Assembly (NCBI GenBank): GCA_014871385.1
Contig: CM026426.1
Span: 13,981,810 to 14,045,809, forward strand
DNA length: 64,000 bases
Reading direction: 5' to 3'
Source: Ceratodon purpureus
Lineage: Eukaryota > Streptophyta > Bryopsida > Pseudoditrichales > Ditrichaceae
Shown here: piece after piece, positions 2,092 through 62,320 of the stretch
Numbering within the stretch: the stretch's first letter is position 1
How the letters are laid out: every line of letters begins with the position of its first letter
Program-made: the position numbers and the translations under genes
The notes under the pieces: generated by a model
What the model was told of the DNA's origin: nothing
The model's input: only the letters and a program-made list of their open reading frames with translations
Databases searched by the model: none

Positions 2092-5000
2092 TCAAAGCCG
2101 TCGAGCCACGGGGGGACCAGAGCGCTCCTGGAAGTCTATCCTTCGTTTCAGTTTGAACCCCATCCCATCATCAACAGTCTTGAACATTGGAGTGCCCATC
2201 ATCGGATGTACTGTCCCATCCCTTTGTTCTACCTTCAATTTCCGGAGCCTGCCAATCGTCTGGTCAAGGTCAGAAATTAGATGTTCCATTAAGAAGGCGT
2301 CGTCTCCGACTTCTTCATGTATGGTAATGATTCGTTGCCGAAGTGTTTCCTGGAGATCATCCCTATGACGCCTTTGAGGAGTCGGAACCGGTGTCACAAG
2401 AACTGGGGTGTTATCTTGTAACGGCGTACAATACTCATGTGGTTGTTCAGGTTGGGCTCGTCGTGGAGTTAATAATTGTTGTGATCCTCCGTTCACGTTA
2501 CCTGCCAGTCTACCATAGTAGCGAGCGATAGTCCCTTCTGCGATGTCCGGGTGCATCATCATAACCACCTTAAAATGATGTTTGCACATGTTATCACGTT
2601 GCGCCCAGACACAATTACAAACTCTCCACTCAGAGCCCGGATTGTACACACTGTATCGCATATGGCGATGTGTAGTAGATGTCACCATGGCAGTGTCACA
2701 GTCCTCTGTCGGCAAGATAACGTCAGACTCAGGTATTAATCTAGCCTTCAGTATGGAATTTACCACCTTATCCTGCATCTTTTTGTTGTCTACGAAACCC
2801 TTCTCCTTACGCAGGTCCTTGTACCAGTAATGGTCAACGACATTCTCGGTTAAAGCTGTAATACACCAGTCGACTCTTCTTCCAGTCATCCTACTTCGCT
2901 TAGACTTCAGAATGGACTTTGCAAACCCATGATATCCTTCGATGGCTGCATTTGTGTCTTGACCACAGTAGTGCAGATTCCTAAATCCAACCACCCACAT
3001 GTGTGTTTTCTCTACCCACTGGTCCCTCATGTATTCCCGAAACTCGTTCTCCTGTGGGTACTTCTTTTCTAGTTCGTCTTTTTTTTTCCGAGCCCATTCC
3101 TTACCCTCTTCACCTGGGGGAGAACTCCGATCGTACATTATCAATCCTAGCTCCTTCATTATCGCAGCTCGTCTACCCAAATCTGCGATCTTGTAACAGG
3201 AATTTTTCTGCCAAGCTCTCCCAACATGCCATAAGCATAAAAAAATAGCAGCATTGGGCCACGTATCGCTGCAGGAAAACCACAATTTAATATTAATGTA
3301 GTACAGAATTGTGAAACACTGTAAGAAGCGTAATAAACACTGTAACATTGTGACACCACATTCGTTTTTTTCGACAGAAGCGTGAATATGAAGACGCCCA
3401 CTTAGAATTGCAGTGAAGTTAACTAGAAATCAATATAAAGGGTTGGAACGAATGTAATAGGGTAGAACTTACTTCAATGCATTTATCTCTCCAGGTGCGC
3501 AGTTGATGATAAAAGCTGCTGGTTTCCAGTAAGGTTTTTTAGCTACCATTCTCGCATTCAAAGCTTTCATCCACGGAGACAAGTCGACCTCGGCGCATTT
3601 AGAAGTCAATATAAAAGCGACAGGTATACCATTGTGCCACTCATCGAAAACCATGAGCGTGTAGAGAGGGAACTGCGGTGAGTTTACATTGCGACCGAAT
3701 CCGTGTATTTAGACTGGAATTTTAAAAAACAATAGTGAATTCAATCAGTGTCACAACTTTGAAAATAGTTAGAGAGTGAGATTGAAACGTTACCTTCTTC
3801 TCATTTGTTCCGAACGTGGCATCTATCAAAATACCCCCATTGTGGCCGTGTTGCAGCATCATTTTACGCTCCCAGTCCGTTTGAATTCCGATGGTGAACG
3901 GCATGTTCGCCCCAGTCAATTCACCAGGGACAGGAATTGGCTTCTGTTCATTGGACTCAGTATAATAGAAAACCTTGTCCGGATTCCTCTCAACCCACAT
4001 TCTGACGCTCTGTGCGTCATTTTTATGCAACATATAAGTTTCTTGGGCAAGCTTCCCGGAAATATTGCGAATATCCTTGGTGGTAAGCAGAAGGTCCCGT
4101 GTTATATCCCTGCCATCTGCTTGATACTGCTTTAGTATTTCCAAATGCTTCTTCATAATTTGATTTGAAGAATCTTTGAGACGTAGACACTCTACGAATG
4201 TGCGAATCTCCGGCAACAAGTGAGCTGAGAAAGCACTACGATCTCCACATTTCATACCTCCGTGCACAACGAGGCCGTCCTGGTTGACATGTTTCTCTTG
4301 TATTATACATATTTCGGACACGTGTAGCGCGTACAAAAGAGTCTTGACCGTGAATTGAGCCAGGCACCCTCGCTTGATGGACCCCCCCAAATTTCTTCTT
4401 AGAGTCCCTTTTTTGTTTCACAGTGGCGGGTACCTTAACTTTGCCAGTTGTCGGGAACATCGCCTCCTCCTTTTCCTGCACCTGAGGGACGTCAATGACC
4501 TTCGGTGCAAGGCCAACTTCAATGTTTCCGCATTCCCTTGACCCGGCTGAACGTACTTGAGAAGATGTGAACTGGGCTTGCTCACATAGAGCGGATAGCA
4601 GCGGCGCAAGGCCATCTGTGACACTGGAAGGATCATTCATAACAGAATCAATAGGCAGGGCTGCGCAGGGGACGAACCACCATTTACTCCCGGCAAGACT
4701 GGATTCCCAAGATCATGCTTTGCCACAATCACAGGATGAGAACCAACCATGTGACACTCATGTTTGCAACCAGGTGGTACCTTCTTTTTCCGGGGTGCGT
4801 ACTTCCGCAGGGTTTGTTTGGCAGGCTTCACTGCGTCTACAACAGAACCTGGGTCCGATTGTGAAGGCCCCCCTATCTCACATCCAGTGGAATCTAAACC
4901 TCCTTCGGCCAAACTGCGGCTGGCTTCGCTTTCGAAGCCCTTCTTCTTACGACTTTGACAGTCGGTATATCCCCTGTGACACTGGAGTTGACACCAGGGA

Positions 5001-43408: not shown

Positions 43409-43917
43409 GAAGCGTTTCAAGTGAAAAGCTTGTTTTGATTTTTATCATAGCCACCCGGGCGTACACTCAAAGCATTGACATGGCAAGTAGAAATTAAATT
43501 CATTAAATTCTGCAAACATCAATATTAAAATATAGAAAACATATAAGGAATAAGGAAGAGAAAAAAAAATTAATTAAAAAAACAAAGTTAAATTCAAGAA
43601 ACAAAAAATTGTATTTAAAAGTGCCACAGAGAACGGGATAGAGATTGACCCGCGGAAAATTCAGGATTGGGATTCGTATATGAAAGAAATATATGCCACA
43701 TTTAAGTAAATCCGGACTTAAAGGTAAAAACCGGACCTTGAGTACACTTTTTGCATGATTATAAGACCGTGGGATCACACCATGATGTCGTGGGCAGTAT
43801 CACAAAAATGCACTATTTACTGGTTTTCAGCCGAAGTTCAGACAATGTTGCACAAATTGAGCTTAATATATATTTATTGACAAGGTTATGTTTGTTTACA
43901 GACAATGCAGTGGGATC

Positions 43918-44591
43918 CTACGATCCACCATCACTACGTAGCACTCTTTCAATGTGCCACCTCTCAATCAGTCTACGCTTAAACTTTCCATCCTTCTGAT
44001 TTCTACGCAGGTACTCCTTTACCGAGGCGTAATACTTTAGCGGCAGAATGAACGGAAGCAACGCTGTTGCTACGTCAGGAATTACGTTTGCTGCATTGGG
44101 TAACGACATTTCACCACTCCACGGAGTTGGAAAGTAGCACGCCAGGTCTCCATTGAAAACATGCCTCATTGGCTAGTCATCAACCATCAGAATTTTGTCT
44201 GGACGACAGAAGTGCTTCGATTTCTCGTCCGTTACGAGTCTGGATAGCTCCTTGTCGCAAAAAGGATACAAATGCGGCCTGGAACACTTGTTTCGTCCAT
44301 AACAGAAGAGCAACCTCAATCAAACTTATCGGGTAGGAGATATCGAATAACCTTACTTAGTCTTGCAGGGGCCATGGAGGACCATATTCCAACTTTGAAG
44401 TTGTTGAGAAGTATCCTAAAGAATTCCAGAAGACCGGGACGAGCCATAATGTTCCTCGGATTGAAGCGACGGGGGGTGCACTTGATATATTGCTCAAAAC
44501 AAAGCAATCCGTTAACAGATAGCACTATAACCTTCCTCGAAACGTCTCGTCGCTCTGAACATGAAGCACCGCCAGATATTATAACCAACAT
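43918..44591 (-). pseudogene. FCP1-like HAD-fold protein, second copy
   Basis: ATG at 44591, two bases from a palindrome copy, opens a frame with RKVIVLSVNGLL, then ARPGLLEFFRILLNNFKVG, IWSSMAP, then (after a frame change near 44310) LRLLFCYGRNKCSRPH, PFCDKELSRLV, then ILMVDD and CYFPTPWSGEM. This order (hhhDxNG; RPGL..F...F.V..WSS; LLF...KC; hhhDD; P.PW.G) is that of the plant FCP1/NIF-like HAD phosphatase family. The nucleophile position is Ser instead of Asp, and a TAG at ~44168 follows MVDD where Gln would fit. So it is either a catalytically dead relative or a decayed gene. It lies downstream of the larger HAD-containing gene on the same strand. Confidence 0.65.
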
Positions 44592-45205
44592 AATGGATCG
44601 TAGGATCCTACGATTCCGAAATAAAAACAATGATCGCAAAAGCATGGAAACCATAATCGGACGCGCTATTTTGTACAAGGGCATCACTGGATCCTACGAT
44701 GTGGAAAATTGGATTTATCCATATACGGAAGGTTCCTAATTCACGTCTAGACCATAGCTCCTATACATCACTCCCTGACCGCAGAAACTACTGTAAAAGT
44801 GGGGATTACAACACAGCCCTCCTCAATGTGCGTGGTCTAATCCTACAATCATATTACAATTTGCACTCTCCTCGTAGTGAACAAAATACTGTTCACACAA
44901 CCTGTGGATAGAATGTTGTTACACCTGGATTCAAAAAGTTGAGGTATATCCTAGAAGTTTATGTAGATAAGAAATTTTACAAAGTGTGCAACTCAATACA
45001 AATATTGAAGTAGCTAGTGAATCACTCATAGTTAAGTGCTTCAAAAACTGAAACCCACCTTGTTCACCGGTATTTACCCTTCACTACGAGAACTATATCC
45101 TCATTACTATGTGCGTCCTTGAAAGGAATGAAACAAAACTTTACAAAGTATACACGACGCGCCTAACACTAAATTTGTGGGGTGATTATCCAACAAATGA
45201 CTATC

Positions 45206-48200
45206 CTATTTACATCCATCCAGAATATCCTTAGCCAGTTTACCAGTGAAGTCCTTCCTACAGTCCTTGAATCCGGGCTCAGGGTAATTGTTACGGACAT
45301 AATTCTGAACAGTCTGGCCAGATTTGAACATACTTTCGAGCCAAGGATGCAGAGTGGACATGAGGAACTTGTCCCCAGGCAACCCCGTCCACGGAATGGG
45401 AAAGATTGCATCATGGTAATCGTTGAGAAGATTCTTGTACCAGGTGTCGTCAATGAGCAATGTTCGGCTTAGGTCAACATGCTCAAGCTTTTCCTGGACA
45501 ACCTTAAGGTCCTTAAGCATGATTTGCTTGTCTGGGTTTTCCTCGTTTCGGTAACTGGACTTGGTAGCTTCGGTCTGCGTTAGCACCGTTAGGAGCTCCG
45601 GCTTAAGTTTTGACCCTTCTAAAACTTTCGCTAGAATCCTATCCACATTCTTTTTGATCATACAACTCCATACCACGACATTAGCCTTCTCTGCTAACAG
45701 CTCCATGAACTTTCCCGCGTCAGGCCTAACTTTGGTTTCTTGACTCTTACTGCCGCCTCGCAATACAAGGAAACCATTCAAGTCCACCACAATAGTGTAC
45801 CGAGGTTGCCTTACCTTCTTGACATTAGTCCAGGTTGACTTTGCGGGGTTAGTTTGTTTGCCTGCAAAAGACAGCCAAATCGTTAATAAGAATCATCCTT
45901 GCAGAACACACGTCATGTAAAATCAAATAGTGTGGCGAGAATTACCTTCTCTAGACGATGCAGATCCCTTTTTCATTGGTACAATTGGTACATTTTTCTT
46001 GCTTTGCGTAGACGTCGAAGACTTTAACCCTTGAGATCAAAAGAAGACATTTCTGTTAGAACACTGAGACGAGCGTATCGATCGTAGGATCCTACGATCC
46101 TGAAAGAGGAGGTCACATTTCAACAAACCAAAATAGAGATCGTAGGATCCTACGATCCATTTGAGAGATCGTAGGATCCTACAATGTGCAAGGAGATGAT
46201 ATAAGGATTAAATTTTCCCTTCTGGATCGTAAGATCCTACGATCCTAGAGTCCATAGAAAATGCCTGAAAAGGATTACTCTGATTCCGCTAAGAAAAATG
46301 GTGGGAAATACCTTCTGTGGGAGCTCTCTTATTCGCAGGCGGCACATCACGGGAGCCAGACTCCGACCGGTAAATTTCCTGGGAAACTGTGAAGGGGTCC
46401 GATCCAGGAGGGCTGAAAGGCGGCAACCCCGCTTTGTGGGCTTCTGCAAAGACACCAGTAAGTACCTCTTTGTCCTTTGCTAAGTCGCTAGGCACAGATG
46501 GAAGAGCGTATGGATCCGGATCGTCCTGCATTTGCGCCAGCGTATCCGCGACATTTTGCTGCTGCAAATCACCCTCGGACCCTTGGGCCTCACTTCCGGA
46601 CGTAAATAAGTCGGTATCGATATGCATTGGAGACGGTTTAGCCCATGGATAATGAACTGGCAAAGAAGATGTAATGCCAAAGGGAGGTGTAGTCAGCTCA
46701 GCGTCTATCGCTGACTGCATTTCAGCATCTTGTCCAGGAGGGCCAGAATCGCCATGGAAACCTTTCTCTGCACTTGAACTAGTACCCCCCTGGTATTTTT
46801 CTTGATCTAGACTAATCGAAGAGTAAATCCCGCGTTCACTTCGGGAAAGCTCCTTCGGAGGGGTGGACTCCGGCGTGAAAGCGGATCTTGGAAAGCATCC
46901 ACCTCGAGATGGCGGGTTGTTGGGAGGGTTAACCTGCAAAGCGATCAGTAACGGAAATAAATACACGAAATGTTTAACAATGACACATTGCATGGTTCGT
47001 TCCACAATAGTGACATTCATCTAGTTAGTTCTGTACCATGTGTCAAACACCACAACTGATTACTAGTACAGAAGTCGGGAACTGCATCATACTTGGTAAA
47101 GATTTTCATAAATCTCTTCATCGACATCGTCGGTCCGACGTCCGCCGAGATTGTGTGAGCCATACTCATGTTCAAAAGATCCTTCCATGTTCAGTCTCTT
47201 GCGAGCACCTCCTCCACGGAGGTGCAAACCCTCCTCTTCTCCCCGCCGTTCATCATGCTCATCCTCTTCATCCTCTTCTATCTCCTCTCGCTCTTCTTCC
47301 TCCTCATCGTCGGAAAGCTCAAGCGGACGTTTTTCCCGGGAAGTGGCACCCCTCTTCGATTTCTCCCTCATTGTCAGAGCCTCCATAGCAGGTACAGTTA
47401 TGGCGAGCGTTTTCGCACTTTCGAGAATATCACTCGTCGTTTTCGTCGCTTTCTCCACTTCATTCTCGTTGAAAACAATTTCGAGGACTTGCGCGCCTCT
47501 TGTCTGTAACAACACAAAGTAAGGTGGAAGAGTGAATACGAGAAGCCCGTAGGTGATAAAATTACGACAATAAATGGAATAAGACATTGAAAGCAGTAAG
47601 GATTTAGGGAACGAGATCGTAGGATCCTACGATCCTCATACTGCTCAATGTGAAACGGCACGGAACTTGGAGATCGTAGGATCCTATGATCTCCCAAAGC
47701 ATGATCGTTGAAGGGCGAAACTCGTTCAGAGATCGTAGGATCCTACGATCACTCGAACGCTAACTTGAATTTCTAATTTGCTGTAATCACTGAATATAGT
47801 TATCGTCGTGGGATCCTACGATCCCAACTAGGTAGGAGATGATGTAACTATAATTAAAAGAGGAAAATATGACAAGCAGAACGGGTTGCAGGGGATGAGA
47901 TCGTAGGATCCTACGATCCTCTTACCAGGCCAATCCAAGTGATCGAAGGACCGCCTCCAATGTTGACCAGAATGTTGTTAGGTGCTCCCAGGGTGCCAAG
48001 AATGTGTGTAACTGCATCGATGTTGAAGTTAGCATAACCATCTTGTGCCCATTGTGTCGGGGGATCCTTGAAATCAGCTGCAGATACAACCTGGTAGAAG
48101 GGCATGTCTATACCGTAAGCTTGTTGGAAGCAAACCGAATCAGGCGTCCTCTGATTGAAGTCGTTTCCATAAACAAAATTGAAGTACAGGGGGAGTGTAG

Positions 48201-51200
48201 GTTCAGGGGTCGTCGGAGTGATAAATCCCTCCTTTCCCTGTGTAATATAAAGAGTCGGGGTATGGAGCCACGGCCGAATTTGATTGACCCGGGAGCCTCT
48301 CTCGTCTACAGCGTTGGCAACGTCAACCAGTCCTGCCCGATCGGTGATGAAGACCCCCGAATAATTTGCCCTCCTGAATTGCGCTTGATCGTGGATCTCC
48401 ATCGCCCGAAGAGAACGCACCACCTGATCCATGCTTGAGAAGTCAGGCGTCCCCTTCTCCATTTGGTTCAAGAAGCAGAAGACTATGGTAATCCGTGCAT
48501 TCGCCTTCATCTAGGAAACAATATCGCCATTTTTTGGATCAAGAATTGTAGCAAGATCCCCGTTTTTCCTGCTCATTCTGAGGCACTTGTACATCGATGC
48601 CACGGACGGTCCTGACGTTGCAGCCACATCCTCAACCCGGTCGCCTTTGTTCTTTCTCTGGTACTCAAATAACATCCCAAGAAGAGTCGGAAAACCTGAT
48701 TCCTTGTTGGATGGACACAATGCGGAAGACCGCATCCTAAAAAAACGCTCTCCATTAACATCCTTGCTTAGCTTCTCGTACCACGTGTCTATGGTGGCCT
48801 CAGTTACATTGTACTTCAACGCCGCGGTATCATACTCTGCATCGGTGTACGAGTCTGCTCGCATTGTCTTACACCTTAGTTCCTTTTTCTCGAAGTAGTG
48901 CATGAACTCATTCTTGATGAGCCTGCGCTTCTTCTCCAAATGACACGCCTCATTCAGGCCCGGAAGAACGGGTTGTTTCTTGGTGGACTTTGTGGACTTC
49001 ACAGACACCTTCTTCTGTAACACCAGCTCCGTAACCTTCGCGATGTCAATATCTCGCATGGAATAAAGCGGCATTAAGTCAGTCTGCTTCAGTGCTCGCA
49101 CCTGGTATCTCTTCTGCTTCAAGCGCTCCTTCTTACTACTTCCTATCCCTCCGTCCCCGTCGTTGTTATCGTCCTCATCCACACCTGCGACGAAGGTGGA
49201 ATACTGTCCAAACGCATCAGGAAGCAAACCATTTACCCAATTGTCTTGAATACCACACCACTTTCTGTAAATCTGCTCATCTACGAAGAGCAGCGGATAT
49301 TTTGGTATGCCAGTGTTGCCATCTTCAATAGACTTGGAGTCGGAGTTGGAGAATAGAGCGGGCAGTTTGTCGGACCAACTCTGAGTTGCATCCAAATAAT
49401 CATTCAGAACATCGAATGCACAGATTGATGTTAAATGTGTAGTTGCGGTCGTAGGATCCTACAATCTCCAAGTTCAGTGGCGCTTCATATATCAGCATTC
49501 CGAGGATCGTAGGATCCTACGATCCTTCACAGAGCCCGGAATCGAAGAGTGGAGCTCTGCACGAGATCGTAGGATCCTACGATCCTCGGAATGCTTGTTG
49601 GAAACAAACACTGCTGAAATCAGAGATCGTAGGATCTTACGATCCGGAAGAACGTGGACGATACATTTAACATCTCGGAATCATTAACAAAACTGTAATG
49701 CAATGTTGGCATACCTTGAATGCGTGTGAGTGCGCAAGACCGGTTAATGATGGTGCTGGCGATCCAGCCTCTCTCCAACTTCTGCGAGCAAGTCCCAGAA
49801 GAGTAAGATAGTTCCACTGTGATCGCACACCGGCAAGGTCTTGATTCAGGACCCGGGAATAATAAATGAGTAGATTCCACTCCTCTTTTTTGGCCCAGAC
49901 CACAGTGACGATAAAACTTCGTGCATCTCTCCTATCCTCCTCACTCAGTCCACCCTCGGCGATGAGGGCTCTGTGTGCGGCAACACAGTGTTGCCCGCCT
50001 ATAATGATGAAGTGCGTTCTCTCATTAATGTCACTCCAGGTCGGTTTGTGATCAAAATACTCGTAAGTCTCCGTAGGCACATCCTTGAAGTCCTCCTTGC
50101 GAATTGGCGGTTCCCCCTTGACTGGCATCACGTAGAGGTGCTGGAGTGAAGGCTAAAACGGCATTGCCCGTTTCTGGTCCATCAGTTGATTCACTCGTTT
50201 AAGCTCCAAATTCCGATACACAATGCTACCCGCTGGAGCTCGGTGGAGCTTGTCAATGTCGACTAGCAAGTCGTCCTGACTTCGTTCAGATTTTCTGATG
50301 GGCCGCTTCCCAAAGATGTGTAGCTTGGTGAACTCCTTCACATAAAGAGCCCTCACTTGCTGCAGCTCCTTTGCTGATTTCCCGGCCACTGTCTTGCTCG
50401 TCATGTTGACCACCTTCGCAAGGGTCATCTCTTCTATCTTAGGGTCAGACTTCTTGCGCTGAGATGGTTTCTTCGTTGGAGGCTCATCTACTACTCTAAG
50501 AGAAGTACTACCCCTCTTCTTTTTCAAGGGCGAGGACGGAACTTTCTTCTTACGTTTCCTATTGTATTTATCACGATTTGCCTTCAGCTCTGTCCAGCAT
50601 TGCAGAATCCTCTGAACTGGTAAATGAATCTTCGAGATCACGAAGCCATGGTCTTTCACAGAGTCAGTTAGCTTCGGCATCAGAGCGTCCTTCATAACAA
50701 TCAGGGCGTATCTGCGACTAAGGTTTACGCTCGCAACATACTCCGAAATTACTAATACAATTAACCGATCGTCGAACTTGGCTATTTCCAGTACCTCCAA
50801 GTGTTTCGTGGGTAGCTTAAAAGTGTCTCCGCTAGGTGCGCTGTCATCCGTGATTGCCGTAACTGGCGCAATCAGAACTCGCTCCGTCTCGGGTTCGAGA
50901 TGCCAATAAAGACCCCACTCGACAATTTTATCAGCGACAAACCACGCGGTTGGTTCAGGGTCGACGTTGATAGACATGGGAGGTATCACCAGCGAGTAGG
51001 AAACAGCATCCGCCAAAAGTCTTGGTTGCCAGTCGGGGTTAACCTGCTTGACATTTTCTAAGTTATCTCTGCATCAAACAGAACAGAATAATTAGATCTC
51101 GTTCAGTCCTCATTTGAGATCGTAGGATCCGACGATCCCCATTGTCGTTTGAAATTACAACACTTTTGTCTTAGATCGTAGGATCCTACGATCATTCTAA

Positions 51201-51762
51201 TGCGCCGCTCGGAAAACCACTTCCCTTTGAGATCGTAGGATCCTACGATCTTTCGATGAGCCACGGTCATCTTTCCGTAACCGTTGAGAGATCGTAGGAT
51301 CCTACGATCTCCAACTTCACTTGCGCTTAAGTTTGCTTATTCCAAGGATCGTAGGATCCTACGATCTCCCAAAGGGTTCCAAATTGAAGGGGGAGCTCGA
51401 GAAGAGATCGTAGGATCCTACGACCCTCAGAATGCGCTTCGGAAATAAACGGTGCTCAACTCGAAGATCGTAGGATCCTACGATCTCTCTCAGCTCCAAT
51501 ACTTATTGGGGCATCTAATAAGGATCGTTTTTCTCTGTATGATGTAATCATTACTGCCGTACTTATAAGGAATTCCAAAATGGAGCGATTTTTGAAACAT
51601 TTCACATCAATAACAATAAAATGTGTCCAATTCTGAATGAATCGTGTCACTGGTTTCTTGGATTCAAACGCATAACACGAACCTCTAATGCATAGAGTTG
51701 GAAAATTCAGTGAATACTTACTTGTCAAGAGCGTTATGCGTTGCTGTTACTTGCGAAGACAT
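45206..51762 (-). pseudogene. 1,540-codon ParB-like / FCP1-like HAD fusion gene of element C
   Basis: Seven exons join in phase with GT-AG introns: 51762-51722, 51068-49715, 49380-47926, 47503-47093, 46933-46312, 46029-45946 and 45861-45206 (4,623 nt). Start MSSQVTATHNALDK; the first donor is GTAAGT. Residues ~140-260: basic (KYNRKRKKKVP, SPLKKKRGS). ~320-465: ParB/Srx-like domain ending in THFIIIGGQHCVAAHRAL, with Cys where Arg is normal. ~466-950: unknown region with ILVNIGGGPSITWIG. ~1010-1060: long Asp/Glu run. ~1088-1300: Pro/Ser-rich. ~1340-1540: FCP1-like HAD (VVDLNGFLV, VVVWSCMIKKNVDRIL, TLLIDDTWYKNLL, AIFPIPWTGLPGDKFL). In-frame TAG at 50153 and 48511; CAG would restore both. Introns 1, 2, 3 and 5 are packed with palindromes. 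One gene, or two fused in annotation; otherwise the model is strong. Confidence 0.7.
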
Positions 51763-52439
51763 ACTGACGTTGCTCAATTTCCAATTCTGTAAACATGAGA
51801 GTAGAAAGCAGGATCGTTAAGGCAACCACTGTGATAACCCAAAGTCAATTTTGCAATAGTGCTGCACCAAAAATAACATCAACGTCCGTCCATTTGCTCG
51901 CCATTCACTACCATAAAGAAACCTTCAGCGAAGGCTAAGCTACATAGAAAGGATGGAATTGAACGAAAGGGCAGCTTTTGCGGGATAGTGTCGTATCAAG
52001 TACTTTACCTGAAATCAAAGCGTCGCACTCTTCCCGAAGGATGCAGCTGTGTACCAACGCAACACCATCCACCGATGTTAGACCACGGTCTTCAAATTTT
52101 GCACCAAATCGGATTCGAACACCGAGTAACTCTGTATAGGCAGGTTGGGAAGTAAATGTAAGCTGGATGCAGGAATACATAAGGGAAGAAACTCAAGAAA
52201 TTGGAGACTAAGACAATGATCGTAGGTCTCGAGACCACAAAACACCGAGTGGATGGGGAACAAATACATCGTAAGAGCATTGCTTACCTGCGTGCAGATG
52301 TAGAAATGGCAGAAATGGCGACAACAAAGGCGCAGGAGATGGCGAAAGCAAAGGTTTAAGAAGCGGAACACCAAAAGCGACAACGCACGGGACGATCGCG
52401 AAAATTCAGCAGCAAAACACATACGCTACGGCTGAAACA

Positions 52440-54300
52440 GTGAATGCGTAGAGAACGCAAATGAAACCGAAAGGCAAGTCTCTGAGGAGTCGCGGGAAAT
52501 CAAGAAACCGGGTTTGGGAAGATGAACGCGTTTGAAATGTCAGAAGCTCTGGAATAATTAGAATTCTAACTAAGGCGGCTATTCATTGAGTGCTGTCTAC
52601 TAGTTTGATGTGAATGAAGAGCTGTCTAGTAATTTGAGAGCTGTCTAGTAGTTTGAGAGCTGTCCAGGAGTTTGATATACAGATTCCAACAATTAATGAA
52701 GGTAAATACTACACTGTATATGGTTTACAAAAGCCAGCTTCCACAAATTAAAGGACCTAAATATCTACGAAGGTTAATATGAATATACATAATTAACAGA
52801 ATAAGGAAGATATTAATTTATAGCTAGTAAATTAAAAAAAAATACCTTTTACATAGAAAGATAATTTAATAAATAAACGATGGAAAAACATCAAAACATC
52901 GAACTTGGTACGTTTCTAAACAATTACCTTGTATACATGGGTCCGTTCAATGTATTTTTATTAAATGCATGAAAAAGGGATTTGTGTTGAATGATTGAAA
53001 TTATTGAATTATACAATGTGGTCTACTATTTTTCGTAAAATTACGCATTTTACTAAAGGATGCATCTAACGGGAGTTGGGAATCTAACAACGGTATTACT
53101 ATCTATTTTTAATATCATGGGTTGCTTTTTAATAAAACAATAAAAGAAAGGTGAAGGAAAACGGGGAAGAAGAAGGGTTTCATAAAAAAAAAACTAAAAA
53201 AAAAAAGATGAAAAACCTATATATCTTTCTTTTATTTGTGAATTTGTGAAATTATAGCATTTGAGAAACTTGAGGAAAATGACCTGCACATATCATAATA
53301 ATCCTATGAAAAATGGAACAATCACTTATATTATATTTATTAAGAGGGTTAAAAAAATAATGAAGCATCTTCAGGAAGAAACATAACGCATGAAGAATAA
53401 AATCGAGATGAATAAATCTTCTTCAACGCATCTTCAAGAAGAAGCATTAGACATAAAAATACAGAAATCGTGACAATTTAAATAAATCAAGGTAAATAAA
53501 TATATAAGTGAACATCTCCACAAAGACGCATAATTTGAAAAAAAGCATCGCATCTTCTGGAAGAAGAATTATGAATCTCATAAATAAATATTAGTAACTA
53601 ATATTTTAATATATTTAATTAATAAGACAATTAAATTTTTTATTTTTTATTTTTTATTTTTTTTTTCTAAGTTGTACATTGTGCACAATGTTGATAAATG
53701 TACTACAACTTCGTTCGAAGTGTTGAACATAATTATTAACATAAAATAAATATATGGTTGGTAAATTAAAACAGGACTTCATAATATGTATTAGAAAGAT
53801 ATTAATAGCAAGTTGGTTGTAGACATGTGTTTACAAGCATGAGACGAGAAATTTGTGTTGAATGTTTGAAACTATTAATTTTACAAATTATGTGGTTTAC
53901 TGTTTTGTAAATGCATACTAGAGGAGATTTGTGTCCAATGTTTGAAACTTTTATATATACAATGTAGTTTACTTTGTTTTTGTATATGCACACTTAATAT
54001 GCTACAACTTCGAAAAAGTATAAGACATAATTATTTAGATAAAATAAATATATGGCTAGTAACTAAAAATGAGAAATGAATATACTACAAAGATTAAAAA
54101 AATGAATAAAAAAGAGTAGGGAACAAGAGCGGAGAAATATGATACAAAATTGTGGCCATGGAGGCACGATCTTGTTTATTATCTAGATAAGAAGGGATTT
54201 TTATGTACAATGATTGGAACGTCCAATTTTTTACGAGTATTTAATTGCTAATCATTTTATTTCTATTCTCAGAGAGGACTATTCATTTTGGTATTTTATT
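52440..54300. other. AT-rich middle of element C
   Basis: No gene. A ~75-bp motif (TTTGTGTTGAATGNTTGAAA...ACAATGTGGTYTACT) recurs near 52980, 53850 and 53930. GCATCTTCAGGAAGAAGCAT-like words recur near 53360, 53420 and 53550. It separates the minus-strand and plus-strand gene groups. Confidence 0.5.
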
Positions 54301-54354
54301 TTTCTTAAATTTGAAATTAAAAATACTTCAGGGCACTTCAGAGTTTAAGGTTTC

Positions 54355-54390
54355 AGGGTTTAGGGTTTAGGGTTTCCAGGGTTCAGGGTT
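54355..54390. repeat. short TTTAGGG-like tract
   Basis: GGGTTTAGGGTTTAGGG followed by degenerate units (CCAGGGTTCAGGG). The plant-type telomere unit, too short to be a telomere; an interstitial remnant or a chance simple repeat inside element C. Confidence 0.6.
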
Positions 54391-54989
54391 CATGGATGCC
54401 AGTCACTGTTTCACTGAAGGTGGTTTGTCTAGTCAATTAGATACCCTTCCGAGCACACCTAAGTATCATGATACTTTACAAGACGGACAATTTGCTGCGA
54501 CTTCATGATTGGTACTGAATTACCCTGTGTTTTGGATGCTCATTGAATGGTCTCATGGCTTAGTAACAATTCCGACTACTCTATTGTTACTACGCTCCTT
54601 CAAATGATTACTTGTTCAATCAAAGGGAGTTGTTCATTTCCTCAGCACCTTGAGAATGATTTCGTCCCTACTCAAGCCTAGTATGCATACCAGTTCTTGA
54701 TCTTGATCCAGACCTCATATGCATGAAGAAGTATTATCTGTGGTATTTCTCCTTTGTGGTTCGACTTCGTTTCCTAGACTTGGTTTCTTCTGCCAATTTA
54801 TTAGAACTAGTGCACATTCATACTCAGGGCGTAGCTTTGCTCTTCAGTAAAGGCACGAAAGTTGCCAAGACTTGCATTAAACTTAGGTCGCCTCCATTTT
54901 AGACATATCGTTATTTGTTTTCATGTATCGACGTCATGTTCTCTGGACATTCAGCAACTACAAACTATCCTTAAGCTCCAGCGAAGGAG

Positions 54990-55770
54990 ATCATTGATTC
55001 CGCGGCGTCAATTGCGGGCAACACGGACCGAGGACGATCTCCAACACAGGTCCGGTTAGTTTCCTCTCTCTTAAATTGCTTGCTTGATCAACTTGATAAT
55101 TCGTAAGAACTGCTAAATGACGAATCTTGCATGGACAGAAGAGTAGTCTTACTTGCTCCCTCGATTCCTGACTGGTTTCCTATAGACCATAGGTTCTTAC
55201 ACAATTAATGTGTTCCAGCAATTATTGATGCGCTCAAATGTTCCCGGCGTCTGGATAGGCATTCTTGTATTAATTTTGCGAATGTAGAAATCATGCATTG
55301 CAATGTTGAGTGCATCACAGTCATTCCAATGGCATTTTCTAATATAATTTAGAAGCGGTTCCTGCAGTTAACACGTTCAGCTTCCGCCGTGTTGCATCAT
55401 CGACTCCGCGGCGTCCACACCGGGAATTACGGACCCAAATTGACGTCATTCACAGGTATTATACATAGTTTCCCTCTCCACTATATTCTTTGCTTAATTA
55501 CGTTGATAAGCCGTAAGAATTGCGACTTCGACAAATCTTGCTGGAACAGACTTTTCTGCTTGCAGTCTGGGTTATTGCCTATTTTCCTTAGAGAAACAGG
55601 TTCTTGCACAAGTAATGACTTCCAGCAAAAATTAGCATGCTCAAATCCCTGCGTCTTGCCTAGGATAAGCATTGATATATTTGCGACTCTAGATAACATA
55701 CTGTATCGCATGTTAAGTGTTTCAGAATCATTTCAATAGCAATTTCTAATGCATATTTTTACGTGGTTCT
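54990..55770 (+). repeat. two diverged ~406-bp exon-intron units
   Basis: A short exon-like segment with GATTCCGCGGCGTC and ending CAACACAG before GT at 55050 is repeated as GACTCCGCGGCGTC and ending TCACAG before GT at 55456, 406 bp further. The following intron-like DNA is also alignable (CTTGATCAACTTGATAATTCGTAAGAA against its partner). No clear protein results. It could be the leader of the downstream transposase gene or a small lost gene. Confidence 0.5.
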
Positions 55771-56365
55771 TGCATTTGACGCTATCAACTGCCGTAAAAC
55801 AAACATGCCAGTTAATGTAGAAATCCCGAATATTCTAGAGTCCACTAATTACTCACTGTACGGACGAATATTCATCAAAACGATTCCGCATCACTTGCAG
55901 GATCGTAGGATCCTACGATCATTCTAATTTTTGAGAGGACACCGATGGGATCGTAGGATCCTACGATCCAATGAATGTTTTTTGCATCCGTTATCAACAT
56001 GAGAAGATCGTAGGATCCTACGATACCATTGGTGGTTTCGCATCCACCAAAGGCTTTACGAGATCAGAGGATCCTACGATCTCTGCGCTATAGTGTCTTC
56101 CATGGTACCAGGAAACAGGTCGTAGGATCCTACGATCCATTGCTCAAGGGCATCCGCTAACATAACCTGGGGGTGTCAACCTTACCTTCATCTGCTATCT
56201 TAAAGAGGGTCCACGGTGATAACCGTGATACCCAACGTTTTCTCTGTCCGTGGAAGATTGTAGGATCCTACGATCTCATCACCACTTCTTCGCTCAAAAA
56301 ATTCCATTTTCTGCATCATTTATTCTAACAGAATTGATTTCTTTCATACTTGCAGGTGATCAAAT

Positions 56366-59300
56366 ATGTCAACTAGCGTTGGAGAAGACGATGACTTCAT
56401 GGATCCCACGTGTAATAACTACGACTCTGACACGGAAGAGCAGCAAGACCCATTCATACCTGGGTTGAATGTATTCATCTGCTATCCTGGCCATGGCATT
56501 GTTGGTCATGCCGTTGTCATTGAAGTGAACCCCATTGGGTCTTGGCTTGGGGTCGATATTGAGAACACAACCCCCGGGATGACCCTCCTTCGTCCCATTA
56601 AGATAACTCCGATGGCGCTCTACCTGCCTATGCAACCTTTACAGACGGAGATCTCCGTCTTGGCCGATGCGCTTGGTAGAACGGTACTTTGGGAGACAAG
56701 AAATGTGATCCGAAATACGCGCGATGGAGAATGCTCGGACTCCACAAGTTCCCTACCATATGTCTCCCAGGCTGAGTGGGTTGCGAAGGTCGTGAAGCGG
56801 TTAAACGACAATGGGGATACCTTGGCCTCTGGACGAATCAACTGCGTCCGTCCAGAGGATTCTTTCGAGGACCACACCTTGGGAGTGGGATACATTGGAG
56901 TTACAGTGCTGGACGTCTTCCTCGGGGATGCAGGGGAAATCATGAGCCATCGTAGGTGGCCGATAGCGGAATGTGTATTTGAGGGTGGGCATAAGCTTAG
57001 CGATTCAGTTGACTATTATACTCTTCATCTTGACGGTGTAGACACCCAGACGCATCTCGGAGGCCGCCCAAAAGCCCCCTATCGATTTATTCGGCGCAAA
57101 AAGCGGATTGACAAGAAACTCGATCTCTATGCCAAGAAGACTCTTCCCGTAGAAATTCAAGCTCTGTGCTCTCAGCGGTGTTGTTCCAGCGAATGTGTCC
57201 GCTTGTTTAGGCCCCAGGATACACTTGTCATTCGACAAAAGTACTGGTTGAAGGACTTCGACGCACGCCGGGATTATGCACGGTCTGTGGGTGGCCAGTT
57301 CCACTATGTGGGAAGTAATAGGAAGCAGAAGTATGTCACGTTGAATGGAATGGATGTATGCGCTACGGCATGGTACAAGATCCATGGTGTACCAAAATCG
57401 ACATTTCACAAATACATGAAAGAGTACAAGAGAGGTGTCGTATCTTCGACGCACGGGAACAAGGATGTCAAACGGCCCCGCCTTGGAACAGTGCAAGCAC
57501 TTGGGACAGTCACAGCCATCATCAATGAGACAACTGATCTTATGCCCAATCAGATGAGAATGATAGCACCTGGCTGGATGGACACACTGAAGTTTCTATC
57601 CTCTGGTCACAGTTGGAAAATGATCCAACAAGACGCCACCCAGGTACTAACTACGAACAACACGCCCTCTTGTCAATTCAGTGTATCTTTCATGGGACAT
57701 CTGCTTGAAAATCCTGAGGTCGTAGGATCCTACGATCCGACGACTTGGAACATTAGTTCACCCGATCTTTAACGGGGTTCACAAATTACTGTAGTGACCT
57801 TTTATTATTAGCGATCCATAGTGACCCGCTACCAATTACTCTCCTACGTGATCGTAGGATCCTACGATCTCTAAGTCAAAAAGAAATGTTTACACAAAAT
57901 TCCCATCTACTCTGGGATCGTAGGATCCTACGATCTCTAAGTTGGGAGGAAATGTTTACACAAAATTGATGGTGTATTCTAGGATCGTAGGATCCTACAA
58001 ACTCTCTAGATTAAACATCTTTAATATTGCATTCCTGCTTCATTTCCACATTGCTAATGCTTATGAAGAGTACAAGTAGGGTACATTTCTGACTAGTAGA
58101 TTGTTTGGATTGATATGCAGACCAACTTAGAATTTGGGTTACCAGCGGTGTCTCAATCAGCCATAAGTAGGCTGAAGAAGCAGCACTTTAAGAATGTCGC
58201 AATCAAACCCGTTGGGAGTTCCTTCGCGAAGTGCACAGAGTGCGACACTCTTCTCCAGTACATTGACCGATCAGTGAAGGGGTCGCCAGAATACCTCAAG
58301 TTTGTGAAACAGAAACAGGACCATTGCAATCTTCAGTCGTCTTGTAGGCGTCTGTACTACACTTGGAGGGAGGAGTCAAAGAGGCAGAAGGGCGAAATAC
58401 TTTGTATTATCCACGACAAAATGGATACCGCAAAGACGGCTATTCCTCGAATGCGCGTTTCCACGAAACATACTTCACCGTTGGGACAGTTTCCTATGAA
58501 TGTCACGGGCATGGTTACGCATGGGCACGGCGACGGTGCCTACCCCCACAACTCGACAGACTTGTGGCCAGGCGACTCTAACTACACTATCTCCTCGCTT
58601 GCGAGACTGCTTCGGCGTCTTGAGGAACCACCCATTCGTCAATCTGGCAAACTGTTCCCTCATGAGCCCGCTAACTCCTTCTTTCGAGCCATGCTCAAGG
58701 GAAAGTCCAGATCTTTTGACGTACTACCCCCGGTAACGAATAACTCCAATGAACGCGCTCCACTCCGAGTGAAACTTTATTTGCAGTTGGATAACTCCGC
58801 AAAGGACAACAAGAATCAATTCCTGATGGGGTTCTTGTCGATGCTTACTTATCGGCGTGTATTCAAAGAGATCCACGCTGGTTTCTTATTGGTGGGGCAC
58901 ACGCACGAGGATACTGATGCCTACTTTAGCCATCTGTCTAAGACCTTGAAGAGTCAGAATACTTACATTGTTGCGGACTTGATGTTGGCCTTCATGAAAT
59001 CCCAGGAATTGAGTTTCATGCCCGAGTTTGTTCAGGAGGTTGCGGATTTTAAATCGTTCCTGGAAGGCTATCTCATTGACGGAGCGGATGTTCTCGTGGG
59101 TTTGGGAAATATGCACCTCTTCAAATTCTATGTAGACGAAAGCGGGTGGCCCGTCATGCGATTCAAGGAGTTTGCAGTTGACCAACACTGGCTACCTAGG
59201 AACAAGCCGGCTATCTGTCTATTCAAGGCGGATGCTGATGGAAATCCGAAGATACCATCTGGCATCCCCAATCCCTTTCAAGAATTTGTGGGGTGATGAG

Positions 59301-60038
59301 ACTGTTGCGTCCACTGGCAACCAAGACAAGGCAAGAGAACAACTTTCCAAAAATCTCGTTAAGAAGTCATTCCTCAAGGGTGGAATTCAAGGTTACATCG
59401 AATTTTGGGAACGCGGGATGCTTGAATGTTCCGGATTTCGCAAGGATTTTCCTCCGTATATTGATTACTGGAAGGGCATTCTTGCAGAATTGGAGAAACC
59501 TCTTCCTCCAACCGTGACGACCTTGGTAGAGGGTTTCTGGCCTAATCATGACTAGTCAGGTATAGAGAGTGCACCTCTATGCCTCCTCCCCGAGACGGAT
59601 GTCACACCTGAGGATGAAGAACCCGAGCCCTATTGTGGCCCCAAGTCCGCTCAACCGAAGCCCGCCTTGAACCCATGGCGAGATGTCCTACCAGGGGCTT
59701 GGATCCTACTTCGTCCCTCCGACCCAGATATTTATCCCGTCTAGTTAGGGAGAGCATGTTCAGCAGTCAATCGTGATGAACGAAATGCGGACTATGGGCA
59801 GTTCACTATCGAATTCTGGGAGCCCAGAAATCGCCACACCGACCCGAAGACGAAGTACGAGAATTGCTGGGACGCTACTTGGGTACGAGAAGATCGACGA
59901 CCAGAACAAGTTCATGTAACTTCAGTGCTCTTTGCAAAGTCCACAACAAAAGAAAACCCCAAGACACGGAAGATCCCAAAGCAAGATCGAGTAAACGCAT
60001 TGGCTAACCTTGATGCTGCTAACCTTATGGATCCGTAG
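56366..60038 (+). pseudogene. DUF7869-like putative transposase of element C, broken
   Basis: ATG at 56366 lies shortly after an acceptor (TACTTGCAG). Exon 1 runs to 57643 (CAG/GTACTA); intron 57644-58120 holds four palindromes; exon 2 starts at 58121 in phase. Exon 1 is acidic at first, then has a Cys cluster (CSQRCCSSECVRLF) and LNGMDVCATAWYKIHG. Exon 2 shows three conserved blocks: IIHDKMDTAKTAIPRM, LQLDNSAKDNKNQF and LVGHTHEDTDAYFSHL. These are the hallmarks of the DUF7869 group, whose spaced Asp/His residues suggest an RNase H-like transposase (inference). A one-base shift near 59280 leads to the frame of 59172-59552. TAG 59553 and TAG 59742 interrupt a further protein-like stretch (QFTIEFWEPRNRHTDPK, KTRKIPKQDRVNALANL) to TAG 60036. 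Confidence 0.7.
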
Positions 60039-60083
60039 CCGTCGCATAATTTATCCCCCATATCCATCCAGAGTTTTGTCGCT

Positions 60084-60378
60084 AGATCGTGGGATCCCAC
60101 GATCTCCTCTACCTGGTAGCTTTGAGATTATTCAGTTTTAGAAGTGCTTCGTTTTGCCCAGACGTACTCGTATAGAGATCGTAGGATCCTACGATCTCCT
60201 CTAACTGGTTGCTATGAGATTATTCAGTTTTAGAAGTGCTTCGTTTTGCCCAGGAGTACTCGTAAAGAGATCGTAGGATCCTACGATCTCCTCTACCTGG
60301 TTGGTATGAGATTATTCAGTTTTAGAAGTGCTTCGTTTTGCCCAGGAGTACTCGTAAAGAGATCGTAGGATCCTACGA
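60084..60378. repeat. three ~91-bp tandem units carrying the palindrome
   Basis: Palindromes start at 60084, 60177, 60268 and 60359. Between them the spacer (GAGATTATTCAGTTTTAGAA...) is almost unchanged. A lone partial spacer is repeated at ~60465-60500. This shows that palindromes multiply with their flanks. The first unit has the altered but still symmetric form GATCGTGGGATCCCACGATC. Confidence 0.9.
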
Positions 60379-60737
60379 CCCTGTTGAACATTCGCTACAT
60401 CTGTTCGGATTTTACTTTTTTTAATCAAACTGCACTCGTTTATGCTGCTTTTGCCTCTGCTTGGTTGCTGTGAGATTATTCAGTTTTAGATGTGCTTCTT
60501 TCCTTCAGCTGTCAGCTAGTTAAGCTAGTCCTAGTCCTAATAATGTTTTCTTATCGCTGAGTAGGAGCCTACGCGCTACTAGGATTAGTGAACGTTGGCT
60601 AGTAGACGTCCAGAAACCCTAGAAGAAGTGGATTACTAGAACTTTTACCAGCTTAGTAGACGAACTCCAGCCGGATACTGTAGAAGAACGTCGCATACTG
60701 TAGAAGTTTGTCGCATAGTGTCGAATATTTTGTCGTT

Positions 60738-61217
60738 ATGGGGAGTCGGGGTAGCAATGTGTGGTTTTTACAGGAGACATCGGCTGACGTCGAGGAGCTC
60801 CGGCCATGGTTTAGGGCGGTGGTCGCCTGTTCTCGCAACACAGCTATTCCTGCTTTCAAATACATCTCACGCATTCTGCAGCCAGGAGCGGAGTGGGATT
60901 GGAGTATTGCTCACACCATAGAGTTGTTGGAGATCTCTAAAGCTTCCGGCATCACCTTCCCACTGACGTTCGAGGAGTCCGAGGAGTCTGAGGAGTCTGA
61001 GAGTGTTGGCAGCGTTCACTTCAGCCACACAGGGGAGGTGTCAACACAAACCATGTCAACTACAGGGTGGCTCCGCATTGTTGACGAAGCATACGACATC
61101 TCGGAGGGTGCTGGAAGTCGGTGCTGGCCAAGATCAGTGGTGCGGAGGAAACGCAAGCCCGCAGTCCACGTATTCGTCGTTTGGATCCGTGCATCCATCT
61201 GTCGATACTGGGTGTAG
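60738..61217 (+). CDS. unknown small protein at the right end of element C
   Basis: ATG at 60738 opens 159 codons: GSRGSNVWFLQETSADVE, then ELRPWFRAVVACSRNTA, IAHTIELLEISKASG, then a Glu/Ser repeat (EESEESEESES) and a basic patch (SVVRRKRKPAV). After about 61110 another frame (PSVDTGCSAVQAKSIAKVR to 61269) also looks plausible, so a frame change is possible. No family recognised. It is the only short gene on the right flank of the transposase within the TIRs. Confidence 0.4.
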   Translation: MGSRGSNVWFLQETSADVEELRPWFRAVVACSRNTAIPAFKYISRILQPGAEWDWSIAHTIELLEISKASGITFPLTFEESEESEESESVGSVHFSHTGEVSTQTMSTTGWLRIVDEAYDISEGAGSRCWPRSVVRRKRKPAVHVFVVWIRASICRYWV

Positions 61218-62320
61218 TGCTGTCCAAGCCAAGTCCATTGCGAAGGTCCGCACGGTGCATGGCCGTTAGTGAACACGATGAGGCTTTTTACCATGTGCAA
61301 TGTCTACGGATTAATTAGTGTGTGTTGACATTGTCCAGCTCGTTTTCGATGGAGCTGCTTCTCACAATCAAATAGTTTTAGAATACATGGTTACTAGTTG
61401 TTATTGAGGCTTCAGGAGTAGTGGCATCTCTGATGTGTACACAATACAAAGTAACATGTAAAGGGCGGAAGACTCCAGTTGTACTCCGATTTGGATTTTT
61501 CTTTACAGTTCACAGAATCCAAATAATGTGATGTGTTTTTACACCTAGGTTGGCAAACATCGTAGGATCTTACGGTCCTGCTTACTACTTGCCAATATTA
61601 CAATACCCACATGTTTGATAACTTTCGTATGAATACTCTTGGAGTCTTCTTTACTGTTTATGCAATGTTCTAACGTGAAGTGTTTATATATACCTACTTA
61701 CCATGGATAGTAGGATCTTACGGTGTTTTACAAGTTGCCAATCTTTAATATCCACATGCTTGATAAGTTTCGCACTTAATCCCGAGCAATTTTTGCTGTA
61801 TTTTTCATTTCTAACCTTCATCGTCTCTCTCAATTTCATAAAACGGTTACGTCTTTGCTGGATCATATGATCCTACGATTCACCCTACCCATCATATTTC
61901 AGTTGGACTTTGACCAATCAGGACTATTGAAAGTCCGGATTTACTTAAATGTGGCATATATATAAGGATGAAATAAAATAGGTTTGAATGGTAGAAATGA
62001 GCTTCTGCCACTTTGTATCAAATAAGGCCTACGTGTACTACATTTCCCCTCCATATAATCAGAATCAAATGTGTATTCAATTGCGAATTCATAAAGGTTT
62101 GGATAAGTTGAAGAACTTATCTAAAGACAAGGGGAGAACGTATATTTCCGTAGCAGAGGTACACTGAATCCTTCCATTGCCAATATATAGTTGAACTTAT
62201 CAATCCACATGTAACGGCAAGAAAATATGGTAGCAGTAGCAACCGATCCCAATTGCTGTAGATCTGAGATAAGATTATGAGTAGAGCCACATATAACACT
62301 GTGGAAAGTGATTTCCACGG

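Follow-up and report, generated by a model that had tools for sequence, protein, structure and literature searches.

At positions 43693-61957 of the window, by which we mean the whole stretch of 64,000 nucleotides taken from Ceratodon purpureus contig CM026426.1 (positions 13,981,810 to 14,045,809, forward strand), lies an 18,265-bp DNA transposon with the termini ATGCCAC...GTGGCAT. It carries a transposase gene on the plus strand, a long minus-strand gene with an exon that an earlier note on this sequence had likened to bacterial ParB, and an FCP1-like phosphatase gene, and its non-coding intervals hold arrays of a 20-bp palindrome. We assign this copy to family A; a second family, B, has a palindrome of its own. 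Its two ends form a perfect inverted repeat of 31 bp (43689-43719 and 61931-61961), as the earlier note had reported, but comparison of 14 insertions identified the outer 4 bp, ATAT at 43689-43692 and 61958-61961, as the duplicated target, and therefore the element proper spans 43693-61957 with terminal inverted repeats (TIRs) of 27 bp that start ATGCCAC. In 8 of the 14 insertions the 4 bp preceding ATGCC are the same as the 4 bp following GGCAT (ATAT twice, AATT, CTCA, CTCT, TATG, AAGG, and one uninformative ATAT within a TA repeat); the duplication is inexact in the other six, two of them being off by one base. Inverted ends together with a target duplication of constant 4-bp length mark the element as a TIR DNA transposon, and the earlier description of an 18.3-kb TIR-bounded transposon with palindromes holds. 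Its features are as follows.

43693-61957, no strand: DNA transposon, family A copy, 18,265 bp, 27-bp TIRs, ATAT duplication
43693-43719, plus strand: left TIR, 27 bp
43925-44534, minus strand: decayed second HAD-like gene; its counterpart in family B, matched by eye, is an open 202-aa open reading frame (ORF)
45206-45830, minus strand: HAD/NIF (FCP1-like) phosphatase domain exon, Pfam PF03031, E 1.1e-12
46080-46244, no strand: palindrome array 1, 4 sites; three other copies carry one extra 58-bp unit
46312-46933, minus strand: exon 5 of the long gene (gene model)
47093-47503, minus strand: exon 4 of the long gene, acidic stretch (gene model)
47615-47918, no strand: palindrome array 2, 5 sites, between exons 3 and 4
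47926-49380, minus strand: exon 3 of the long gene, no recognisable domain; in-frame TAG at 48511; family B counterpart 26% identical
49447-49644, no strand: palindrome array 3, 4 sites, between exons 2 and 3
49715-51068, minus strand: "ParB-like" exon of the long gene, motif FIIIGGQHCVAAHRAL; in-frame TAG at 50153, a Gln codon in three other copies
51118-51485, no strand: palindrome array 4, 7 sites at 56-60 bp, between exons 1 and 2
51722-51762, minus strand: putative exon 1 of the long gene; start codon is ATA in copy C2a
55901-56275, no strand: palindrome array 5, 6 sites, immediately upstream of the transposase ATG
56366-57643, plus strand: transposase exon 1; family B counterpart 45% identical
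57718-58002, no strand: palindrome array 6, 4 sites, transposase intron
58121-60038, plus strand: transposase exon 2 with DUF7869; frameshift near 59285, TAG at ~59553 and ~59742; open in copy C1a
60085-60380, no strand: palindrome array 7, 4 sites in 92-bp tandem repeats, 3' of the transposase
60708-61217, plus strand: ORF3, 169 aa; region mostly retained, at 90% identity, in the 2.1-kb deletion derivative L043
61558-61880, no strand: degenerate palindromes near the right end, 3 sites
61931-61957, minus strand: right TIR, 27 bp

The palindrome, GATCGTAGGATCCTACGATC, occurs within the element 18 times exactly, 11 times with one mismatch and 38 times at up to four mismatches, which sets at 38 the count of about 40 given before and leaves the array itself as described. 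The rest of the window holds a single match, with six mismatches, and none at up to four mismatches appeared in any of 10 Markov shuffles, in agreement with the earlier observation that the motif is absent elsewhere in the window. All 38 sites lie clear of the modelled exons, of ORF3 and of the decayed second HAD gene; both genes carry arrays in their introns, and others precede the transposase ATG or follow the transposase on its 3' side. Spacing is often regular, 16 of the 25 intervals shorter than 100 bp measuring 56-60 bp. We also observed that five of the eight gaps between arrays (44596-61558) measure 1.39-1.55 kb, and that the single long gap of 4435 bp is about three times that length.

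Sequence around the sites is mostly unrelated: 16 of 1406 flank comparisons exceeded 99.9% of the null, and half of these 16 similar pairs fall in short tandem arrays at 57.9, 60 and 61.6 kb, an older inverted similarity being common to some arrays. Of 39 site positions in the four aligned full-length copies, 34 are occupied in every copy at up to three mismatches, and positions 9-11 (GAT) are invariant over their 152 sites. Palindrome columns vary less than spacer columns (24/738 versus 74/1308, Fisher p 0.017), a modest difference and a mildly biased one, since the sites were selected for few mismatches. Because palindrome columns vary less than spacers, and because the flanks are mostly unrelated, it is the 20-mer itself that seems to be kept. 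The window site at 60085 has two changes and is still a perfect palindrome.

In the 362-Mb assembly (151 contigs, the window lying on the 110,524,308-bp contig C6) the exact palindrome occurs 609 times and its reversed control not once. Fifty of these 609 places were listed, running in contig order through C1 and along C2 up to 26.5 Mb, and all 50 lie inside three TIR-bounded elements, in keeping with the expectation that palindromes are confined to such elements. Three further full-length copies, about 97% identical, carry the palindromes in place, and in the four aligned copies palindromes, genes and TIRs do travel together, as the earlier note had proposed should be checked. It had also asked about copies that amplify the palindrome without the ParB-like gene; the deletion derivative L043 lacks that gene, keeps both TIRs and has two degenerate sites only. 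Among the best candidates scored by the genome exon search, family A ParB-like exons number 29 near-full-length rows at at least 83% identity, eight of them without stops.

Exact TIR cores number 59 in the assembly, 49 of them on C6, which makes up 30% of it and is probably the V chromosome, that of C. purpureus being about 110.5 Mb long; the family A rows below 97% identity and the partial rows are all on C6. This concentration of TIR cores and older, broken rows is as expected of a non-recombining sex chromosome that keeps fossils. One copy there (C6:110505128-110524265; L037, L038) ends about 41 bp before the contig end, and its right flank, compared by eye, is that of the copy at C2:26533735-26552870, pointing to duplication of a segment close to contig ends. 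A TIR variant, GACACATTTAAGTAAATCCGGAC, in 18 listed rows may belong to a distinct non-autonomous family or represent solo ends. The relative L050 (C6:74350001-74360000; 50-56% identical) has 10 matches to the palindrome framework, mostly of the A type and decayed, several of which resemble GATTGTAGGATCCTACAATC, as deamination of CpG would be expected to make them, a hint that sites become methylated in dead copies. A search of IMG/VR for viral origin or distribution returned neither the exact palindrome nor relatives. Elsewhere in the window, ORFs at 2092-4390 (minus strand) look by eye like a Mutator-like element (MULE) transposase.

Family B was recovered in the same exon search as 41 rows at 30-32% identity to the family A ParB-like exon, 38 of them without stops. 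In the copy examined (C11:320001-340000, most of the element, up to transposase exon 2) the gene order is that of family A: transposase, ParB-like exon, exon 3, HAD and second HAD-like gene. Between the families, identity is 45% in transposase exon 1, 62% in exon 2 (88 residues), 28-31% in the ParB-like exon, 26% in exon 3 and 40% in HAD, and the second HAD-like gene of family B is 29% identical to the first HAD. The family B palindrome, CATCGGGNGATCNCCCGATG, is found 35 times in the C11 element at up to four mismatches with two positions free, palindrome A not at all, and a second B copy holds 15 B sites and no A sites in 10 kb; conversely, no B site at up to three mismatches occurs in the four A copies. 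The two palindromes share the framework ATCGnnnGATCnnnCGAT, their half-sites agreeing at 7 of 10 bases (chance 0.0035), with the outer ATCG and central GATC constant and the inner bases different. Sites and proteins have diverged together between the two families, and a second family with its own diverged palindrome is what one would expect if private binding sites and a protein encoded by the element evolve together. A 127-bp tandem array was also seen between the family B transposase and ParB-like exon (L047, 3383-4692).

The putative DUF7869 transposase of the earlier note is well supported, with a match to PF25273 at E 6.3e-41 (140.5 bits against a Pfam gathering cut-off of 26), and it has the RNase H-like catalytic core of the DDE/D transposase fold; no MULE model in Pfam matched it. 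Its named DUF7869 relatives come from Physcomitrium, Ceratodon, Riccia and oysters, two of them being Ceratodon purpureus proteins, one with U-chromosome locus names on a 112-Mb contig. As to the two FCP1-like HAD genes proposed before, one HAD domain is clear, and the second gene, decayed in the window, has an open counterpart in family B. The window copy is defective, with in-frame TAGs in the ParB-like gene and a frameshift and two TAGs in the transposase. As the in-frame stops read in its modelled exons are TAG, an alternative genetic code was considered, and rejected because the other copies readable at those places have Q or W codons and TGA and TAA stops occur in other copies.

The ParB/Srx-like label fared less well. 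The conserved motif THFxIIGGQHxV resembles the GERRxRAA box of ParB by eye, and the exon has 11 related proteins, among them one at 99% identity that is probably the same species' own; the whole 923-aa protein used as query returned no matches. In Pfam, neither the protein nor any of its 11 relatives nor the family B exon matched ParBc at E up to 10, and NCBIfam, PHROGs and PDB sequences yielded no ParB match either; the only ParB-named hit, PF24392, has E 0.14, below the cut-off, and is situated in the transposase. The profile comparison suggested before, run with hhalign against four chromosomal-type ParB proteins and a shallow query profile (Neff 1.9), scored 14.4, inside the 10.1-18.2 given by 30 column shuffles, while the positive control, SopB against ParB, was clear at 95.9%. 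The best segment was the expected neighbour of the GGQH motif, with a score within the shuffled range, and a comparison with a mixed set was likewise negative. A predicted structure of the exon (pLDDT 41) was unusable for fold comparison, and protein tyrosine phosphatases returned by Foldseek on this poor model (TM 0.08-0.09) were discarded. ParB is thus not established: the protein has relatives but is unclassified, the likeness being one of motif. A DNA methyltransferase was also considered, as exons 3 and 4 of family A hold a DPPTQW and a glycine-rich stretch, which are likened to amino-methyltransferase motifs, and the palindrome contains three GATC sites; it was rejected, as no methyltransferase Pfam model matched A or B and, by eye, family B lacks the DPPT stretch.

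We propose, at about an even chance, that a sequence-specific protein encoded by the element binds the element's private palindromes, the likeliest use being anti-silencing of the VANC kind. In this DDE-type family the binder would most likely be the GGQH ("ParB-like") exon protein, acting as a dimer on its own 20-bp palindromes across most non-coding intervals. Dozens of regularly spaced sites would let the protein coat its own element and not host DNA, and such a coat may protect the introns and promoters of the element from closure by host silencing, perhaps assisted by its FCP1-like phosphatases acting on the transcription machinery. Several observations weigh against this proposal. A DNA-binding domain was not recognised in the ParB-like protein with the family libraries searched, and ParB homology failed in every test made. 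Transposase exon 1 diverged together with the palindrome too, and the transposase could be the binder. The ratio of non-synonymous to synonymous polymorphism (pN/pS) of the ParB-like exon between young copies is weakly below 1 (0.54-1.03). The column test, as said, is modest; eight of the nine window sites with at least two changes are no longer perfect palindromes; one family B site, C11:333543, lies inside an open reading frame; and, over the 9.3 kb upstream of the exon (69% identical) of the old relative L049, there is a single poor match to the framework and no array. Membership of an element was seen for the 50 listed places of the 609 exact palindromes.

Other readings of the palindromes must be set beside this one. 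In Spm/En, TNPA binds repeated short subterminal motifs of its own element, and the palindromes here may likewise be sites at which the transposase or an accessory protein builds a transposition complex; they are similarly repeated within their own element and specific to it, they have diverged along with the transposase too, and the L043 derivative keeps both TIRs and two degenerate sites. However, the sites are spread through introns where those of Spm/En are subterminal, the largest arrays lie well inside the element (51.1-51.5 kb and 55.9-56.3 kb), and the sites nearest the right end are the most degenerate, so that we regard this reading as unlikely, if worth keeping in mind; the spread of sites over the element, and not at its ends, favours a role in chromatin or transcription over one in transposition. 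A host DNA-binding factor, an insulator protein or transcription factor, exploited by the element with no element protein binding, would fit one consistent 20-mer with its invariant GAT, but it fits poorly with two families in one genome that have different palindromes, each absent from the other's examined copies, and with the lack of any palindrome outside elements among the 50 listed places; we consider it improbable. We are just as doubtful of a partition-like system, in which a ParB-fold or convergent protein would load at private GATC-centred palindromes between coding exons, spread over the DNA, mark the 18-kb element as self, exclude silencing and direct the FCP1-like phosphatases to polymerases on its own genes, families changing the inner bases of the shared framework.

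That most arrays lie in modelled introns would also suit an action in RNA, with hairpins that either attract a factor for splicing or export or give rise to double-stranded RNA. Changed sites are mostly not restored as palindromes, though, family B sites such as CATCGAGAGATCCCCCGATG would give imperfect hairpins, and the sites near the ends lie outside any modelled gene, all of which makes this reading quite improbable. Passive spread of short tandem repeats, without function, could draw on the recent tandem units (92-bp repeats at 60085-60361, and the 58-bp unit absent from the window copy) and on the older inverted similarity shared by a few arrays; yet the 20-mer persists between mostly unrelated flanks, exons are avoided and parallel arrays exist in the second family, and we give it very little credence.

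VANDALs are MULE-type transposons, and the two features that would place our element among them, a MULE transposase and a VANC protein, were not found: no MULE model matched, and the candidate protein has no Pfam match. The comparison with VANC made in the earlier note is apt by anatomy. In Arabidopsis (PMC5735166), VANC21 and VANC6 bind motifs that are concentrated in the non-coding parts, introns among them, of the VANDAL family to which each protein belongs, and these motifs are not the same from family to family; the motif is of 8-9 bp, directional and arrayed in one orientation, its number shifts through repeat gain and loss, and VANC binding is demonstrated. The likeness lies in an element-encoded protein and in short element-specific motifs in non-coding regions, introns included, that differ between related families (50 of the 609 places being those listed), and the differences lie in the 20-bp palindrome, the spacing of often 56-60 bp, the DUF7869 transposase and the putative nature of the binding. 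Bacterial ParB-parS also has palindromic sites, and the GGQH motif recalls the GERR box by eye, but there is no statistical homology and here tens of sites lie inside one 18-kb element.

The transposon group may already be named Lanisha, whose authors are also those of the Ceratodon genome. Lanisha was proposed as a new cut-and-paste superfamily (Repbase Reports 2020) and belongs to a group, CMCT, with CA..TG termini in most cases and duplications of 2-5 bp, as given in PMC12730594; by that account our 4-bp duplication fits, whereas the termini here are AT..AT. No paper naming DUF7869 was found in the literature searched, and no description of the element or its palindromes among the literature matches listed.

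In mechanism, the system would be of the VANC kind, but neither its transposase nor its candidate protein is related to those of VANDAL elements, and its sites are palindromes, often set at even distances. Should these serve as private docking sites, it would be, to our knowledge, a second case besides VANC/VANDAL of a transposon co-evolving an address code with its own protein, here with a different transposase and in a moss. Two families with different codes in one genome would make specificity directly testable, and the arrays are large and regular enough to offer a natural test of how dense binding sites resist silencing.

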